Positions 47,598 through 58,761 of a stretch of DNA of 64,000 bases are shown one piece after another; the first letter of the stretch is position 1; each line of letters opens with the position of its first letter. The translations under genes and the position numbers were made by a program. Origin of the DNA: Acidobacteriota bacterium (lineage in GTDB: Bacteria > Acidobacteriota > Holophagae > Acanthopleuribacterales > Acanthopleuribacteraceae); contig JAGQSC010000050.1 of the NCBI GenBank assembly GCA_020439745.1, positions 62,001 to 126,000 on the forward strand, read 5' to 3'. The notes under the pieces were generated by a model. It did no database searches, was not told the origin of the DNA, and saw only the letters and a list, made by a program, of their open reading frames with translations.

Positions 47598-50500
47598 TCA
47601 GTCAGACACCAATTGGTTTCTACCCAGATACGTCATCAAACTAGGCAACACCAACAAAGTCAATAGGGTGTCGCTGAGGACGCCGCCCAAAACCACCAAC
47701 GCGAGTGGGCGCTGTACCTCGGCGCCCACACCCGTATTCAGGACCATGGGCAAAAAACCCAGTCCGGCCACGAGCGTAGTCATAAGTACAGGACGCAGTC
47801 TGTTCAAGGCCGCACGCTTGATTGCCACCGGCAGGTCCATACCTGCATTGACATTTTGGCGGAACGAGGCCATAAGCACCAGGCCATTGAGCATAGAAAC
47901 CCCGCAGACAGCCACAAATCCGACCCCAGCCGAAATCGTGAAGTGAATACCTGTCAGCCACAGCAACAAAATGCCACCAAGCGCCGCAAACGGTGCTCCC
48001 GTAAAAATCATCAGGCTGTCGGCAATTGAGCCCGTACTCGTGTGTAGCAGGAAAAGGATTAAGAGCAGTGCCAATGGTACAACAACGGCCAGGCGCTTCT
48101 CGGCCCGTATCATGTGTTCAAATTGACCACCGAACTGAACAAAGGTGTCTTCGGGCAAGCGGATACGTTCACGGATAAGCTGTTCGGCCTCCTTCACGAA
48201 AGAACCCAAGTCACGGTCATGAACATTACATGTCACGGCAATTCGCCTTTTCATCCATTCGCGCTGGATATTTGCAGGACCTACTTCAATTCGAATATCG
48301 GCCACCTCATCCAGTGGGATACCGCCGCCATCAGGCAGGGGGATCACGAGTTCAGCCACATGATGAGGGTCCAGCCTCGTTTCCGGATTCCAGCGCATGA
48401 CCAGATCAAAACGGCGCTGTCCCTCGCGCACCTCACCCACCTTGTAGGTACCCAAACTGGCAACCATGTTCAGAACCGACTGAGCGGACAGGCCGAACCG
48501 GCCCAATGCGGCCCGATCTACATGCACCGTCAACATCCGTTGGCCTGTAACCTGTTCCGTAGCTACGTCCTCTGCGCCCGGCAAGGTGCGCAGCAACGCA
48601 TCAATTTGAGCCGCAATGTCCTGAAGAACCTCAAGATCATCACCAAACACCTTGACACCCAAATCGCTGCGAATGCCGGACACCATTTCATTCATGCGCA
48701 GCTCAATCGGTTGGGTAAAGGCCAATCTTGTGCCTGGAAACACAGACATGGAAGTGCGCATTTGATCCATCAGCGACTCCTGTGTGTCAGCTTGGGTCCA
48801 TTGGGATCTAGGGGTCAACGTGACAAAGATATCACTCAACTCAATGCCCATAGGATCGGTAATCACATCAGCGGTTCCTGTTCGCGCCCACACATCTTGA
48901 ATCTCGTCAGGAAACGACGCCAGTAAATGGGCTTCCAACCGCCCGCCGTAGCGCACGGATTCATCGAGCCCAACACCCGAAAGACGAACCGCATTGATGA
49001 CAATGCCCATTTCGGAGAGCTTTGGAATGAATTGCGAACCCAAACGCCCAGCCACAATCAGCCCGGCAACCATTAGAATCAAAGTACCCATGATGAAGGC
49101 AACTCGCACGCGAATTGCTGCATCCACAAGTGGTGTATAGCAACGTCGCACAAACGGCATGATCAAGCCCTCGCGATGCTTGTCCGTTTTGCCCAAGCAC
49201 AAACTGACCAGCACTGGCATCAAGGTCAGGGAAAGTATCAACGATCCAGCCAGAGCCATCATGACTGTAAGAGCCATGGGCCGAAACAGCTTGCCTTCCA
49301 CACCTTCAAGCGTGAGAATCGGCAAATAGACCAGCATAATGATGAGTTCGCCGAACATGGTGGGTTTGCGCACTTCAATGGCCGCGTTTCTAACGACTTC
49401 TTTGACACTTGTACCCGGATCTGCATGACGCAATCGCCGTACACTGTTCTCAACCATGATCACCGAGCTGTCCACGACCAATCCAAAATCTATAGCTCCA
49501 AGGCTCATCAAACTTCCGGCTATGCCAAACTTGGCCATACCATTGGCGGCAAATAGCATTGAAATGGGAATGGCGCTTGCCACAATTAGTCCCGCTCGAA
49601 CAGAGCCCAGGAATACGAACAGGACAGCCACCACCAATAGTGCGCCTTCCAGCAGGTTCTTCTTAACCGTGTTCAGCACTTTCTCGATTAACTCGGTGCG
49701 CACGTACAAGGGTTCAACAACAACACCATCAGGCAGCTGTTTACTTACCGACGCCAGTCGCTCTGACAGGGCGTTTGTCACCCGATAGCTGTTCTCACCC
49801 ACCATCATGAAGGCCAACCCAAGCACAACCTCACCCTGCGCGTTGGACGTGGCTGCCCCGCGCCTGATTTCATGGCCCAGCACCACACGCGCTACGTCGC
49901 GAACCAACACGGGCACCCCTTCGCGACCGGGCACATTGGAAGCTGTATTGATTGCAATAGCCTCAATCTCCTCAATGGCCTGCACCACGCCCAACCCTTG
50001 TATCAAGAACTGCTCACCGGCTAATTGGAGATTTCCTCCACCAACATTCATATTGTTTGCCCTAAGCGCGTCCTGTAGATCTTCAAACGTCACACCTCGA
50101 GCGCGCATCGCATCTGGGTCCATTTGAACGTGATACTGCTTTTGTGCCCCACCCCAAGTGCTCACTTCAGCCACGCCTGGCAGACTCAAAAGCTGCGGTT
50201 TGATGACCCATTCCTGCAACGTGGTCAATGTCTGCAGGTCATGACTTCGACTGCGTACCACGTAGTGGAGGACTTCACCCAGACCCGTGGCAAGGGGTCC
50301 CATCTGTGGTACGGATGCACTCTGAGGGAGCTGGACCGTCTGCAGCCGTTCCATCACCATTTGTCGCGCCAAGAAGAGATCCATGTCGTCTGCAAACGTC
50401 AACGTAATTTGGGAAAGCCCAAACTTGGAGACCGAACGCATGTCCTTCAATTTCGGCAATGCGCCAATACTTTGTTCAATGGGAAAGGTTAATTGCTGCT

Positions 50501-50684
50501 CAACCTCTAAAGGCGATAAAGCAGGTGTGGTGGTATTGATTTGCACCTGAACGGGCGTGGTGTCGGGAAAGGCATCGATTGGCACATGATTCACGGACCA
50601 GATTCCTACCAGACACACCAAAAACGTCAGAATAAGAACAACCGGTCGCTTGTCCAGTGACCAACTGATAATTCGATTCAACAC
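47598..50684 (-). CDS. Heavy-metal efflux RND pump (CzcA type)
   Basis: A 1028-residue inner-membrane proton antiporter with twelve predicted helices and two large periplasmic loops. The fourth helix, near residue 400, has AIDFGLVVDSSVIMVEN. Its Asp, Asp and Glu occupy the spacing of CzcA D402, D408 and E415, a triad of Zn/Co/Cd pumps and not found in CusA. That points to divalent cations rather than copper or silver, although the specific ion is inferred. The ATG follows GAGGTGAC, 8 nt after the adaptor stop. No outer-membrane channel gene is in the cluster. Confidence 0.9.
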   Translation of the reverse strand: MLNRIISWSLDKRPVVLILTFLVCLVGIWSVNHVPIDAFPDTTPVQVQINTTTPALSPLEVEQQLTFPIEQSIGALPKLKDMRSVSKFGLSQITLTFADDMDLFLARQMVMERLQTVQLPQSASVPQMGPLATGLGEVLHYVVRSRSHDLQTLTTLQEWVIKPQLLSLPGVAEVSTWGGAQKQYHVQMDPDAMRARGVTFEDLQDALRANNMNVGGGNLQLAGEQFLIQGLGVVQAIEEIEAIAINTASNVPGREGVPVLVRDVARVVLGHEIRRGAATSNAQGEVVLGLAFMMVGENSYRVTNALSERLASVSKQLPDGVVVEPLYVRTELIEKVLNTVKKNLLEGALLVVAVLFVFLGSVRAGLIVASAIPISMLFAANGMAKFGIAGSLMSLGAIDFGLVVDSSVIMVENSVRRLRHADPGTSVKEVVRNAAIEVRKPTMFGELIIMLVYLPILTLEGVEGKLFRPMALTVMMALAGSLILSLTLMPVLVSLCLGKTDKHREGLIMPFVRRCYTPLVDAAIRVRVAFIMGTLILMVAGLIVAGRLGSQFIPKLSEMGIVINAVRLSGVGLDESVRYGGRLEAHLLASFPDEIQDVWARTGTADVITDPMGIELSDIFVTLTPRSQWTQADTQESLMDQMRTSMSVFPGTRLAFTQPIELRMNEMVSGIRSDLGVKVFGDDLEVLQDIAAQIDALLRTLPGAEDVATEQVTGQRMLTVHVDRAALGRFGLSAQSVLNMVASLGTYKVGEVREGQRRFDLVMRWNPETRLDPHHVAELVIPLPDGGGIPLDEVADIRIEVGPANIQREWMKRRIAVTCNVHDRDLGSFVKEAEQLIRERIRLPEDTFVQFGGQFEHMIRAEKRLAVVVPLALLLILFLLHTSTGSIADSLMIFTGAPFAALGGILLLWLTGIHFTISAGVGFVAVCGVSMLNGLVLMASFRQNVNAGMDLPVAIKRAALNRLRPVLMTTLVAGLGFLPMVLNTGVGAEVQRPLALVVLGGVLSDTLLTLLVLPSLMTYLGRNQLVSD

Positions 50685-50692
50685 ATGTCACC

Positions 50693-52096
50693 TCAATGCC
50701 CTGATTCAGCCTGGCAACAGCCTGCACCGATACTCTCCTTCATCAGTTCGGTCTTCAGCAGGAAACTTCCAGTGGTTACCACCTGTGCCTCGGCACTCAA
50801 GTCAGCGGCAACTAAGTAGGCATCCTGGTCCTCGTGAAGAATGGACACTTTGACGGGCTTGAAGCGATTATTGCCGTCAGGCGTGAAAACGATCTGACAA
50901 CATCCTTCCCACTGCACAGCGTCTTTTGGCACGCTCAAACCGGCCTGCTCTTCTAACACCAATTCAACCCTACCGTAGTCGCCCGCTCGAATAAGCCCTT
51001 CCGGGTTGTCCAAGACTGCTCGTGCACGCAAAGTCTGCGTGTGGCTATCTATTTCTGAGCTAATCCAGTCGACCTGTGACTCGACGACCTTTAAGCCAAT
51101 GCCGTACCGAACCACCAGCCCCTTTTTCAAATATTGAACATCGCGCCTGGGGACGTCCAACCATAACCACATGCGTTGCGTATCAGCCAAGGCAAACAGG
51201 GCTTCATTGGCGGCAACAAACAGACCACGAACTGCCGCACGCGAGACGACCTTGCCCGACAACGGAGCGCGTATGGCGACAATGGGTCGACCTTCACGTT
51301 CAATCAGGTCCATATCCATGCCATGATTTGTAAGCACCCGTCGTTGACCTTCGAGCGCTGCTGTGGCTTCTCTCCATGCGTTTTCCGTTTCCAAGAAATC
51401 GCGTTCGGCCAATAACCCCTGTTCCCAAAGACGCTGATCCTGTTTGTATTTCTGTTCCTGCAGCGACGCATGACTGCGGACTACGTGATATTCAGCACTC
51501 CACTCCGCCACTGCACTGCTTTCCATCATGGCAATTACGTTGCCGGCCTCAACCCACTGTCCCAAATCAACCTGAACATCTGTCACCAGTCCTGCAATTC
51601 GGGCACGCACCTGAACGTAATGGTTTTGGTCATGATCCGTGCGCGCAGGTACTTCGATGTGTCGTCCGTGGTCCATCCAAATCACCGGGGCCACCTGGAT
51701 ACCCACCTTTTCGGCGGTTTCAACATTTGGAAGAACAATGACGCTGGCAACGCTGGGACAAGCCGTTTCAATAGGCAGATTGGAGGCCAAGTCGAGTTTT
51801 GGCACCTGAGCACCACAAGCATCGCATTGGGATTCAGGAAGCGCATGTTCAACACACCAATCGCCCTGAGCTCGAAACCCGGGTTCCAAATCTGCGTGGC
51901 AGCGAAAGCAGAAAGCCTCTTGCCACCCGTGTTCGGGACAAATACCTAATTCAGACACATAGTCTGCGTTGCACCAAGGACAAACTGACTCATTCCTCTG
52001 GTGTTCTTCACAATATGCTTGCGCCTCCATACGAGGAACGTGGCAATTCAGAATCAGCGCGCTCAAGCACGCAAGAACGACTCGTGTCGTCGACAT
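50693..52096 (-). CDS. RND efflux periplasmic adaptor with N-terminal Cys-His repeats
   Basis: A 467-residue membrane-fusion protein. After a signal sequence come three evenly built repeats of the form CxEHx6Cx2C at about 29-42, 53-66 and 81-94 (CEEHQRNESVCPWC, CPEHGWQEAFCFRC, CVEHALPESQCDAC). Then follow the usual adaptor parts: the beta-barrel/lipoyl halves (VRARIAGLVTDVQVDLGQWVEAG, IRAPLSGKVVSRAAVRG) and the long coiled-coil hairpin between. The Cys-His repeats are likely metal-binding, delivering or sensing the exported ion. GGAGGCCTGAT precedes the start. It is 55 nt downstream of the small Cys-rich gene. Confidence 0.88.
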   Translation of the reverse strand: MSTTRVVLACLSALILNCHVPRMEAQAYCEEHQRNESVCPWCNADYVSELGICPEHGWQEAFCFRCHADLEPGFRAQGDWCVEHALPESQCDACGAQVPKLDLASNLPIETACPSVASVIVLPNVETAEKVGIQVAPVIWMDHGRHIEVPARTDHDQNHYVQVRARIAGLVTDVQVDLGQWVEAGNVIAMMESSAVAEWSAEYHVVRSHASLQEQKYKQDQRLWEQGLLAERDFLETENAWREATAALEGQRRVLTNHGMDMDLIEREGRPIVAIRAPLSGKVVSRAAVRGLFVAANEALFALADTQRMWLWLDVPRRDVQYLKKGLVVRYGIGLKVVESQVDWISSEIDSHTQTLRARAVLDNPEGLIRAGDYGRVELVLEEQAGLSVPKDAVQWEGCCQIVFTPDGNNRFKPVKVSILHEDQDAYLVAADLSAEAQVVTTGSFLLKTELMKESIGAGCCQAESGH

Positions 52097-52151: not shown

Positions 52152-52496
52152 TCAGCGACGGGGCGGCCTAAATATCTCCAGTATCTGACCTGTAATGTGT
52201 GCGGGATCAGCGGATGCAGGCGGCATCGAGGATGTCGGTTCCATGACAATCGACGCCACAGAACACAAGTCTGCCGCATGTCCGATACAGGTGTGTTTGG
52301 GGCAATCAGGACAGGATTCATCCCCATCATTCTGGCCCTGATTACAATTGTCGATTGTTTGGCAGGGTACGCTGTGAAGGTCATCCAACAGCAACTTTTC
52401 GCTGCAACAATCGGAAACCTGGTTCACGAGCACCAGAGGTTCGCAATTGAACCAAACCAAACAAAAGAGTGCCATGAAGGTGACTAAGTGTGACAA
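52152..52496 (-). CDS. Small Cys-rich exported protein, first gene of the metal efflux operon
   Basis: A 114-residue product with an N-terminal hydrophobic signal (LVTFMALFCLVWFN) and ten cysteines in total, including CPDCPKHTCIGHAADLC. I do not recognise the family; comparable small Cys/His-rich secreted proteins precede metal exporters in other bacteria. It begins with TTG at 52496, with AGGT about 9 nt upstream; ATG at 52475 is the alternative. Position and composition suggest periplasmic metal binding. Confidence 0.5.
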   Translation of the reverse strand: MSHLVTFMALFCLVWFNCEPLVLVNQVSDCCSEKLLLDDLHSVPCQTIDNCNQGQNDGDESCPDCPKHTCIGHAADLCSVASIVMEPTSSMPPASADPAHITGQILEIFRPPRR

Positions 52497-52633: not shown

Positions 52634-54022
52634 ATGAAACGTCGGGTCTTTTTGCAATCCCTTGCTTTTGCTCTAGCACAACGTCGGCGAAACCGACGAC
52701 CTGTGCCCCGACTGATTGCCGAACCCAATCCTTTTCCCTACGCCAATGGGCTGGCCTTCACCGTGGATGGCGTTCCATCACCAGTCCTGCGATTTCGACA
52801 GGGCGATACACTCGACTTTGAACTGGTCAATCACCTTGACGAACCGACGACCGTGCATTGGCATGGACTCAAGGTGGATTGGATCCACGATGGGCATCCC
52901 CTTTTCTCCGTTGCTCCCCAAGAGAGCCGATCGATTCAGTTCCAGATCCTCAATCGCGGTGCCACCTACTGGTATCACCCTCATGCCCACCAACGCACCG
53001 CGTTTCAGGCCTATCACGGCATGGGCGGTGCCCTCATCGTGGATGACGAGGATCAAGACCGTTTGAAAGACCGCTTTTCATTAGTACCTGGCGTGACTGA
53101 CCTAGTGCAGGATCGCGTGATCGACGGCAACCTGCTGGTGTACAACGAAGGTCATCCCTTACATGGATTTCTAGGTGACCAGGTCATGGTCAACGGTACG
53201 ATCAAAGCTACCAAGAAGGTTTCGGCGACCTGGCACCGACTTAGGTTGATCAATGCGTCAAACGCCCGCATCTATCGCATCGCATTATTTTCAGAGGGAC
53301 AAATGGTACCGTTCCAACTGATTGGAGTCGACGGGGGTTTGCTGGAACAGGGCGCTGAGGTCAATGAGGTGTGGCTATCACCAGCTGAACGCGTAGAGCT
53401 GATGGTTGATTTCGGTCATCCCTTAATGGGTTCTCGAGCTTCTTTGCAGTCACAAGACTTTACCGAGTTGATTGGGCCCATGGGCGGCCCCACAATTCAG
53501 GGTCATCCCATCCACATCATGGATTTCCTGGTCCTGCGCAAACGGCCGGTGGTACGACCCGCGCCCAATTTTGATGGACTCAGTGTCGTTGCAACACCGG
53601 ACTTCACCGATGCCCCGTTTCGCAACATTGGACTCGCAGGTCAAATGCATTTCACGATTAACGGCGCCGTCTTCGACATGAATGAAGCGCCCATCACTGT
53701 TACTCGTAACAGCAAAGAGATATGGTCGATCACCAACAACACCACTATTCCCCATCCCATGCACCTGCATGCCGTTCCCATGCACGTCCTTGAACGAAGA
53801 GGTAGTCCTCAGCTCATACGCAGCCAAGCCGTTGATATGCGGGGTAGACTGCCGACCGACCTTGGTTACCAAGACACCGTTCTGGTCTGGCCATTCGAGC
53901 AAGTGCGCGTAGGCGTCGCGTGGGAAATTCCCTTTAACACAGAGCAATCCTATCTTTTTCACTTTCACAACCTGGAGCATGAAGACCGCGGCATGATGGT
54001 CAACGTGCGCGTCACACCTTAA
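52634..54022 (+). CDS. Multicopper-oxidase-like protein lacking the type-1 copper cysteine
   Basis: About 462 residues, with a short leader (KRRVFLQSLAFALA, then an Arg-rich RRRNRR). Cupredoxin motifs: HWHG near residue 75, WYHPHAH near 115, HPMHLHAVPMHV near 374-385, and FHFHNLEHEDRGMM at 442-455. In active enzymes the last motif is HCH; here Phe444 stands in place of the Cys (codon TTT at 53963-53965, one base from TGT). The type 2/3 histidines are all present. Without the Cys, T1 electron entry should fail, so this is either a non-oxidase like FtsP/SufI or a recent loss. It diverges from the metal efflux operon. Confidence 0.82.
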   Translation: MKRRVFLQSLAFALAQRRRNRRPVPRLIAEPNPFPYANGLAFTVDGVPSPVLRFRQGDTLDFELVNHLDEPTTVHWHGLKVDWIHDGHPLFSVAPQESRSIQFQILNRGATYWYHPHAHQRTAFQAYHGMGGALIVDDEDQDRLKDRFSLVPGVTDLVQDRVIDGNLLVYNEGHPLHGFLGDQVMVNGTIKATKKVSATWHRLRLINASNARIYRIALFSEGQMVPFQLIGVDGGLLEQGAEVNEVWLSPAERVELMVDFGHPLMGSRASLQSQDFTELIGPMGGPTIQGHPIHIMDFLVLRKRPVVRPAPNFDGLSVVATPDFTDAPFRNIGLAGQMHFTINGAVFDMNEAPITVTRNSKEIWSITNNTTIPHPMHLHAVPMHVLERRGSPQLIRSQAVDMRGRLPTDLGYQDTVLVWPFEQVRVGVAWEIPFNTEQSYLFHFHNLEHEDRGMMVNVRVTP

Positions 54023-57000: not shown

Positions 57001-58761
57001 TCAAACTGACTGATTGACTTCGTCGAGGAATCCCAAGTAGCGAAGCCCCATGGAGATGGGCGCATCGCGGTAGTGGCGCGACTCGATTTCCAATAGTTCA
57101 TCTTTGATTCTCGATGCGAGCAAGACGCCTCGGTCAATCTTTTGTAGACCTTCCAACAAATTCCAGCGCAACAACCAACTGTCGCGATAATAGGAAAGCT
57201 CACGATCAATGCGTGTAAATTCGCGGACAATGGCGCTATGATCGCCGGCTGCCCAGACGTCAAGCGCTTGCTGATACAGCTCCAAAAGGTGTTTACCTTT
57301 TTCGTCGAGCACTTTCTGGACCGGCACCGATTTGTCGGGATAGTCGCTCTTGGACCAATAAGACACATCTGCTGGACCTGCATACACGGATGGCACTTCT
57401 TCGCCGACGGCACAATCAAACGCACCCCACTCGGGCCTGAAAAAGACTTCATCCCCGCGTTTGACCCAGCAATCCGAGAAGCTGATCACCATCAAATGGC
57501 CCGACGCATTGACCACCGCGTTTTCAAGTGTACCCGCGACTTCAATGCCGGAGGCATAAGTCAACTTAAGTGTGTGACCTCGTCCTTCGCAACCCAGCCA
57601 ACGCAAATCCACTTCCTTGCACAACGACAGTTGGCGCCCGTCCGCCAGCGGTCCAAGTGGCGTGCTGTAGCCATCCGGGTGGTGTTTGGCGTCATGGCCT
57701 GGCAGGTGCTGATCCTGGTGCGCCAAGGCACATGGACCTTTGAATTTAAGGAACACGGGCGACTTGTCTTGCATGATGAAATCCGTCAGCACCCCGGAAA
57801 TTTGAATACCAGAGTTCAAACAAACCGTGCCTACCTCGCCACTCATTCGGAACCGTTCCAACCCTGTCAGTCCACCCATTCGGAAAGCCAGTCCGTCTGC
57901 TACTTCTTCAAGCACTTCGTTCAGGTGATTGAAGTCACGTGCCACAAATAATTGGGGTTGCGGTTCTGTGATGTCGTACGATACATCAATGCAGCCGGCC
58001 GTTAGAGGCACCTTCTTAACCTTACTCTGGTGGCAGAAAAAAGCTTCACCCACGGATGACAGGATCCCAGCTCCATAGATTTTGTAATCCTTAGGTGTCC
58101 CCACGAGTCCATACTCCACGGTCCACCAATGTAACCGCGACATTAAAGAGGCCTCGGTCAGAAAGCTAACCGCTTCAATGGATGCCTTCAATTCAGCTTC
58201 AGCTGCACTTACCTGGGCGGCTGTGGCATGGGGGTCTTCTTTGGTTTCGGAAAGCTGGCGAATGGCTAGGTAAACTCGGTTGTCTTCCCGAGAGGAAAAG
58301 GCCTTGGCACCGATCTCGCCAAATCGCTGAAGGTAGTCGCGATAAATAGGGTCTGGAATGATGGGCGAATGCCCGGCGGACTCGTGAATAATGTCCGGTG
58401 CAGGCGTGTAGGCAAGGTGTTCAGCCGTGCGAATCTCGGTGGCAATCGTCATGATACGCAGGGCTTGAAATTCTTGAAAGGCGCGAGGCGGGATAAAACC
58501 ATCCACACACACCGCACCCCAACCATAGTCGGAAAGGCATTTGTCCATCTCTTCGATTCGCGGAATTCGGTCTATGGAAATGCCGGTTTGTTCCAGTCCC
58601 TTGATATAAGTGGGATGGGCCGTTCGCTTCAGTTGGTTGTAGGTCTGCAGCATTACAAATCGCCAAACGGCCTGGTCAATCTCGTCATAGGCGCTGTAGT
58701 CCTGTTTGACAATATACTGACGCAGGTGTTCGGGCACGCGATCCAAGGTCGCTTGATTCAT
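57001..58761 (-). CDS. Aromatic amino acid hydroxylase (phenylalanine 4-monooxygenase-like), long form
   Basis: A 586-residue protein. The catalytic domain (about 20-330) has the iron ligands His126, His131 (IIHESAGHSP) and Glu216 (WWTVEYGLVG), with the pterin-binding region around RIMTIATEIR. A C-terminal extension of about 250 residues follows, containing beta-rich segments (GYSTPLGPL, TLKLTYASGIEVAG) and a helical tail. Similar long hydroxylases occur in Bacteroidetes and Acidobacteria, where the role of the extension is not known. It is a tetrahydropterin-dependent monooxygenase converting Phe to Tyr by inference. Confidence 0.88.
   Translation of the reverse strand: MNQATLDRVPEHLRQYIVKQDYSAYDEIDQAVWRFVMLQTYNQLKRTAHPTYIKGLEQTGISIDRIPRIEEMDKCLSDYGWGAVCVDGFIPPRAFQEFQALRIMTIATEIRTAEHLAYTPAPDIIHESAGHSPIIPDPIYRDYLQRFGEIGAKAFSSREDNRVYLAIRQLSETKEDPHATAAQVSAAEAELKASIEAVSFLTEASLMSRLHWWTVEYGLVGTPKDYKIYGAGILSSVGEAFFCHQSKVKKVPLTAGCIDVSYDITEPQPQLFVARDFNHLNEVLEEVADGLAFRMGGLTGLERFRMSGEVGTVCLNSGIQISGVLTDFIMQDKSPVFLKFKGPCALAHQDQHLPGHDAKHHPDGYSTPLGPLADGRQLSLCKEVDLRWLGCEGRGHTLKLTYASGIEVAGTLENAVVNASGHLMVISFSDCWVKRGDEVFFRPEWGAFDCAVGEEVPSVYAGPADVSYWSKSDYPDKSVPVQKVLDEKGKHLLELYQQALDVWAAGDHSAIVREFTRIDRELSYYRDSWLLRWNLLEGLQKIDRGVLLASRIKDELLEIESRHYRDAPISMGLRYLGFLDEVNQSV

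Follow-up and report, generated by a model that had tools for sequence, protein, structure and literature searches.

What is a multicopper oxidase (MCO) that has kept its trinuclear copper ligands but carries a phenylalanine where the cysteine of the type-1 (T1) site should be? The question is raised by a gene in a 64,000-nucleotide stretch of an Acidobacteriota genome (hereafter the window), whose plus strand encodes a protein of 462 amino acids at positions 52634-54022. On balance we think it probable that this protein is a McoP-type periplasmic metallo-oxidase, of the kind acting on Cu(I) or Fe(II), from which a natural Cys-to-Phe change has recently removed the type-1 copper. The initial annotation had offered three readings, namely a recent inactivating change, an assembly or sequencing error, or a protein that binds copper but has no oxidase function. 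Our analysis favours recent loss leaving a T1-depleted copper binder, with an error the less likely case on priors.

A McoP-like protein with an intact predicted fold

The protein matches the Pfam families Cu-oxidase_2 and Cu-oxidase_3 with strong scores above the cut-off, and the nearest solved structures by sequence are McoP from Pyrobaculum aerophilum (42% identity) and McoA from Aquifex (6ttd/6syy). In a FastTree phylogeny of 100 sequences it is the sister of McoP (support 0.94), and the two are nested with betaproteobacterial proteins in a clade with a support of 0.998. The protein has the GRLPTDLG and HNLEHED-GMM motifs in common with McoP, and shares its three-domain fold. The AlphaFold2 model (pTM 0.90) retrieved McoA and McoP as the best Foldseek matches (E about 1e-51), together with laccases and CueO, and the list includes 3nsc and 3nt0, two structures of the T1-depleted C500S variant of CueO. 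As modelled, the fold is intact and like that of an active MCO, with the cupredoxin domains and architecture of the three-domain McoP/CueO-type enzymes. The reading frame is likewise intact and its GC3, at 0.57-0.58, is the same as in the neighbouring genes. The twin-arginine motif near the amino-terminus makes export through the Tat pathway probable.

Two narrower assignments were considered and rejected. Against the CueO equivalog model (NF008205) the protein scored 221.8 bits, below the cut-off of 525, and against the model for the pseudo-MCO SufI/FtsP (NF008135) it scored 130.9 bits for a cut-off of 581. SufI also has the MCO fold, is exported by Tat and is not an oxidase, but it has lost nearly all of the ligands, with no more than two of the copper residues of CueO left, and binds no copper at a site that is blocked (PMC2661564); in the protein described here ten histidines are kept and the cysteine alone is lost.

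Table 1. Features of the MCO-like gene and of the divergent efflux genes, with positions in the window.
Feature	Position	Strand	Basis
Heavy-metal RND pump, ZneA/CzcA-like; divergent neighbour	47598-50684	-	
RND periplasmic adaptor, Cys-rich N-terminus, ZneB/CzcB-like; divergent neighbour	50693-52096	-	
McoP-like MCO of 462 aa with Phe at the T1 Cys position	52634-54022	+	PF07731 and PF07732; McoP (3aw5) E=3e-88; AlphaFold2 pLDDT 91
Probable Tat signal peptide, MKRRVFLQSLAFALA-Q	52634-52681	+	Twin-Arg motif then hydrophobic stretch, from reading the sequence alone
HWHG (in VHWHG), His75 (type 2) and His77 (type 3) ligands	52856-52867	+	Invariant columns
Asp86 in the conserved DG motif, counterpart of the proton donor Asp112 in CueO	52889-52891	+	Invariant column; family DGX motif (PMC2661564)
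HPHAH (in YHPHAH), His115 and His117 (type 3 ligands)	52976-52990	+	Invariant columns
HPMHLH, His374 (T1), His377 (type 2) and His379 (type 3)	53753-53770	+	Invariant columns
HFHNLEHEDRGM, His443, His445 (type 3), His449 (T1), Glu450 and axial Met454; Phe444 in place of the T1 Cys	53960-53995	+	

The type-1 site lacks its cysteine

The C-terminal copper motif reads FHFHNLEHEDRGMM (H443, F444, H445, H449, M454). All ten histidine ligands are kept, as are the axial Met454 and the proton-relay residues Asp86 and Glu450. The eight histidines of the trinuclear type 2/3 cluster (H75, H77, H115, H117, H377, H379, H443 and H445) each fall in an invariant column, in agreement with the initial annotation, which had listed the HWHG, HPHAH and HPMHLH motifs and both histidines of the final HxH as retained. 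In the T1 site, which requires two histidines, a cysteine and an axial methionine, H374, H449 and M454 are present and the cysteine is Phe444, as had also been reported. Its codon is TTT, at positions 53963-53965. TTT and TGT are one base apart, and the earlier suggestion of a single-base change from TGT is plausible, since TGT outnumbers TGC among the Cys codons of the window (106 versus 85). There is no cysteine anywhere in the translated 462 residues, which leaves no thiolate that could act as ligand instead; this disposes of the one case, a different Cys serving the T1 site, that had been named as able to overturn the assignment at the protein level. Judged by its T1 site, the protein is a homologue of the MCO family that is predicted to be non-functional as an oxidase.

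Two further features of these motifs were set aside. The tandem TTTCACTTTCAC at positions 53957-53968 is an automatic consequence of encoding FHFH and gives no evidence for slippage, and HPHAHQ and HLHA are not signs of decay, similar forms (HTHAHE and HPMHLHA) being present in relatives that keep the cysteine.

Expected consequences for copper chemistry

In MCOs the substrate reduces the T1 copper, and electrons then pass through the His-Cys-His pathway to the trinuclear centre; McoP oxidises Cu(I) and Fe(II) in this way (PMC11111587). McoP has its T1 cysteine and several methionines in the loop near the T1 site, whereas the protein described here has Phe444 and a single methionine. It would still be expected to fold, to be exported by Tat and to load the trinuclear cluster, but the change to phenylalanine would take away the T1 copper along with the covalent electron route from substrate to cluster. 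With that route gone, neither a blue band (about 600 nm) nor appreciable oxidase turnover is to be expected.

Close parallels are laboratory mutants, the C500S variant of CueO (3nsc, 3nt0) and the C473A variant of CutO from Rhodobacter capsulatus, in which the T1 cysteine alone was removed and the fold and the trinuclear histidines were kept. These differ in that serine and alanine were introduced by design, whereas the phenylalanine is found in a natural sequence, and in that the parent enzymes are active and have Met-rich segments, which the present protein lacks. Oxidase activity was undetectable in CutO C473A, but the variant still supported copper resistance. Under aerobic conditions this was comparable to that of the wild type at 250 uM but lower at 400 uM, and without O2 it was near wild type; the authors propose copper sequestration (PMC8456105). 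By analogy, our protein would at most be a copper-binding protein conferring residual copper tolerance: copper binding may be retained, and oxidase function should be lost. The single methionine in the loop and the missing Met-rich segment suggest that any sequestration may be weaker than in CutO.

It is highly improbable, in our view, that catalysis continues with electrons delivered directly to the trinuclear cluster, for example by Cu(I), a partner protein or peroxide. The complete trinuclear histidine set, retained with Asp86 and Glu450, is consistent with such activity, but the engineered CutO mutant has no detectable oxidase activity (PMC8456105), and among the ORFs read none next to the gene is evidently that of a cupredoxin or cytochrome.

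The change is unique among the sequences searched

The initial annotation had called the retention of type 2/3 ligands without the T1 cysteine unusual and had proposed a comparison with orthologues as a check. The rarity was borne out. Cysteine occupies position 444 in every relative with a readable motif (about 125, matched by tblastn) and in all 46 other members of a 47-sequence alignment. An alignment with 99 relatives has 24 invariant columns, of which C444 is the only one where the protein departs. When the motif HxHxLxHEDxGM was surveyed in 396 genomes of the same phylum, 55 occurrences had a Cys codon and one, the present gene, did not (non-Cys codons being counted where the second base is not G). 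By these sequence comparisons the loss of the T1 cysteine is unique among all sequences searched, and the restriction to one invariant position together with the uniqueness of the motif is far beyond chance.

A search for a close orthologue found none in the family's six other genomes, of which one belongs to the same genus. The best matches, at about 40-44% identity, come from Betaproteobacteria, Chloroflexota and archaeal McoP, and none exceeds about 44%. A homologue of about 910 residues occurs in a genome of the same class (G028), and also in JACQZU010000019.1 from an Acidobacteria bacterium. A scan of viral contigs gave 13 matches, all distant. The gene has no second copy in its own genome, where the only other Cu-oxidase_2 protein is an MCO-like protein of 421 residues on another contig (L136:2987-4252, contig C51). 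This second protein has an intact HCH (YHCHIIPHVKHGMW), and its first motifs are unusually spaced.

A change confined to precisely one invariant residue, and lying one base from the commoner Cys codon of the window, could also be produced by a sequencing or assembly error or by a mixture of strains, the true codon then being one for cysteine. We consider this decidedly unlikely. The prior for one codon is about 1e-4 (from our own estimate of consensus error, 1e-5 to 1e-4 per base), and the surrounding genes are intact. T1-less MCOs also occur naturally, as documented for one laccase from a fungus, PoLac11, in which the cysteine is serine (PMC6017272), and one from a plant, SmLAC5, which has no H-C-H (PMC6463009). 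Since such natural cases are known, natural loss is likelier than error on priors. Both resemble the present protein as MCO paralogues that have naturally lost the T1 cysteine or site, although they belong to eukaryotic multigene families and ours is bacterial.

How old is the loss?

Among columns conserved in at least 90% of sequences, the protein departs at 4 of 51, and McoP (3aw5), which keeps its cysteine, departs at 6. The terminal branches are of similar length, 0.90 for this protein and 0.93 for McoP, and give no indication of acceleration. Because no other invariant position has decayed, the loss of the T1 site appears recent relative to the divergence of the gene. As a crude estimate, any fully unconstrained period would cover less than about 15% of the terminal branch, given 23 further invariant columns left untouched and the assumption that sites free of constraint evolve no more slowly than the average.

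The same 23 columns could also have stayed unchanged if the remainder of the protein is under selection or if the base is wrong, and because no orthologue exceeds about 44% identity, sequence does not separate these from recent loss. Conservation of the second shell may, moreover, partly reflect folding needs, which counts against the recent-loss reading. With the best relatives at about 42-44% identity, the age of the loss and the selection acting on it can be judged only indirectly.

Selection could have kept the protein, after T1 was lost, as a stable pseudo-oxidase that binds or sequesters periplasmic copper at the trinuclear histidines. All eight of these are still present and show no decay, CutO C473A is a precedent for a protein of this type raising copper tolerance (PMC8456105), and the gene is divergent from a metal-efflux operon which it adjoins. 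We hold this to be unlikely, if still worth weighing: Asp86 and Glu450, residues of the O2 chemistry that a pure binder would not need, are kept as well, no second T1-less homologue was found in the about 125 relatives or the 396 genomes, and the neighbouring pump is Zne/Czc-like. A maintained bacterial class of T1-less MCO, whether a trinuclear-site copper store or an oxidase or peroxidase fed with electrons directly at the cluster, seems to us quite improbable. Recent loss within a single genome is most likely the better explanation than a new kind of protein.

Genomic neighbourhood

The metal-efflux operon that the initial annotation placed beside the gene is indeed there, but it supports a copper role for the MCO-like protein less than was then assumed. 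The pump scores 604 bits against ZneA and 569 against CusA, and the adaptor 83 bits against ZneB and 40 against CusB. The positions that we take to be the CusA methionine triad (M573, M623 and M672) are not methionine in the pump alignment. The operon thus probably exports divalent metals, as judged from these alignments, and because its pump and adaptor are nearer to ZneA/ZneB than to CusA/CusB, co-location lends weak support to a copper role for the MCO-like protein.

An outer-membrane partner is not evident beside the pump and adaptor genes on the minus strand. Residues of about 28-95 of the adaptor form an N-terminal Cys-rich extension ahead of the HlyD domains, in which CxxC, CxxH and CPEHG-like motifs recur; this extension may be a metal-binding domain. 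Immediately upstream of the adaptor gene, a small Cys-rich ORF (52152-52496, minus strand) encodes 114 residues, possibly secreted, with no Pfam or NCBIfam match. On the other side of the MCO-like gene, positions 57001-58761 of the minus strand encode an aromatic amino acid hydroxylase (NF010657, 623 bits) of 586 residues, which is extended at length beyond its C-terminal end.

In the same-genus genome the homologues of the flanking genes sit on different contigs. Elsewhere, one relative of the MCO-like gene adjoins genes for CopA, CopB and a CusS-type sensor (L054), a second those for a cupredoxin and a sensor kinase (L049), and a third that for a P-type ATPase with an HMA domain (L058). These neighbours support the idea that the family takes part in handling copper or metals.

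Implications

If the loss is recent, or the base is an error, the locus is a caution for automatic annotation, which would call the product a multicopper oxidase despite its broken oxidase site. If the base is real, the engineered T1-depleted MCOs have a natural counterpart in this protein, which would offer a test of whether the trinuclear site by itself has a part in copper handling in cells, as CutO C473A suggests.
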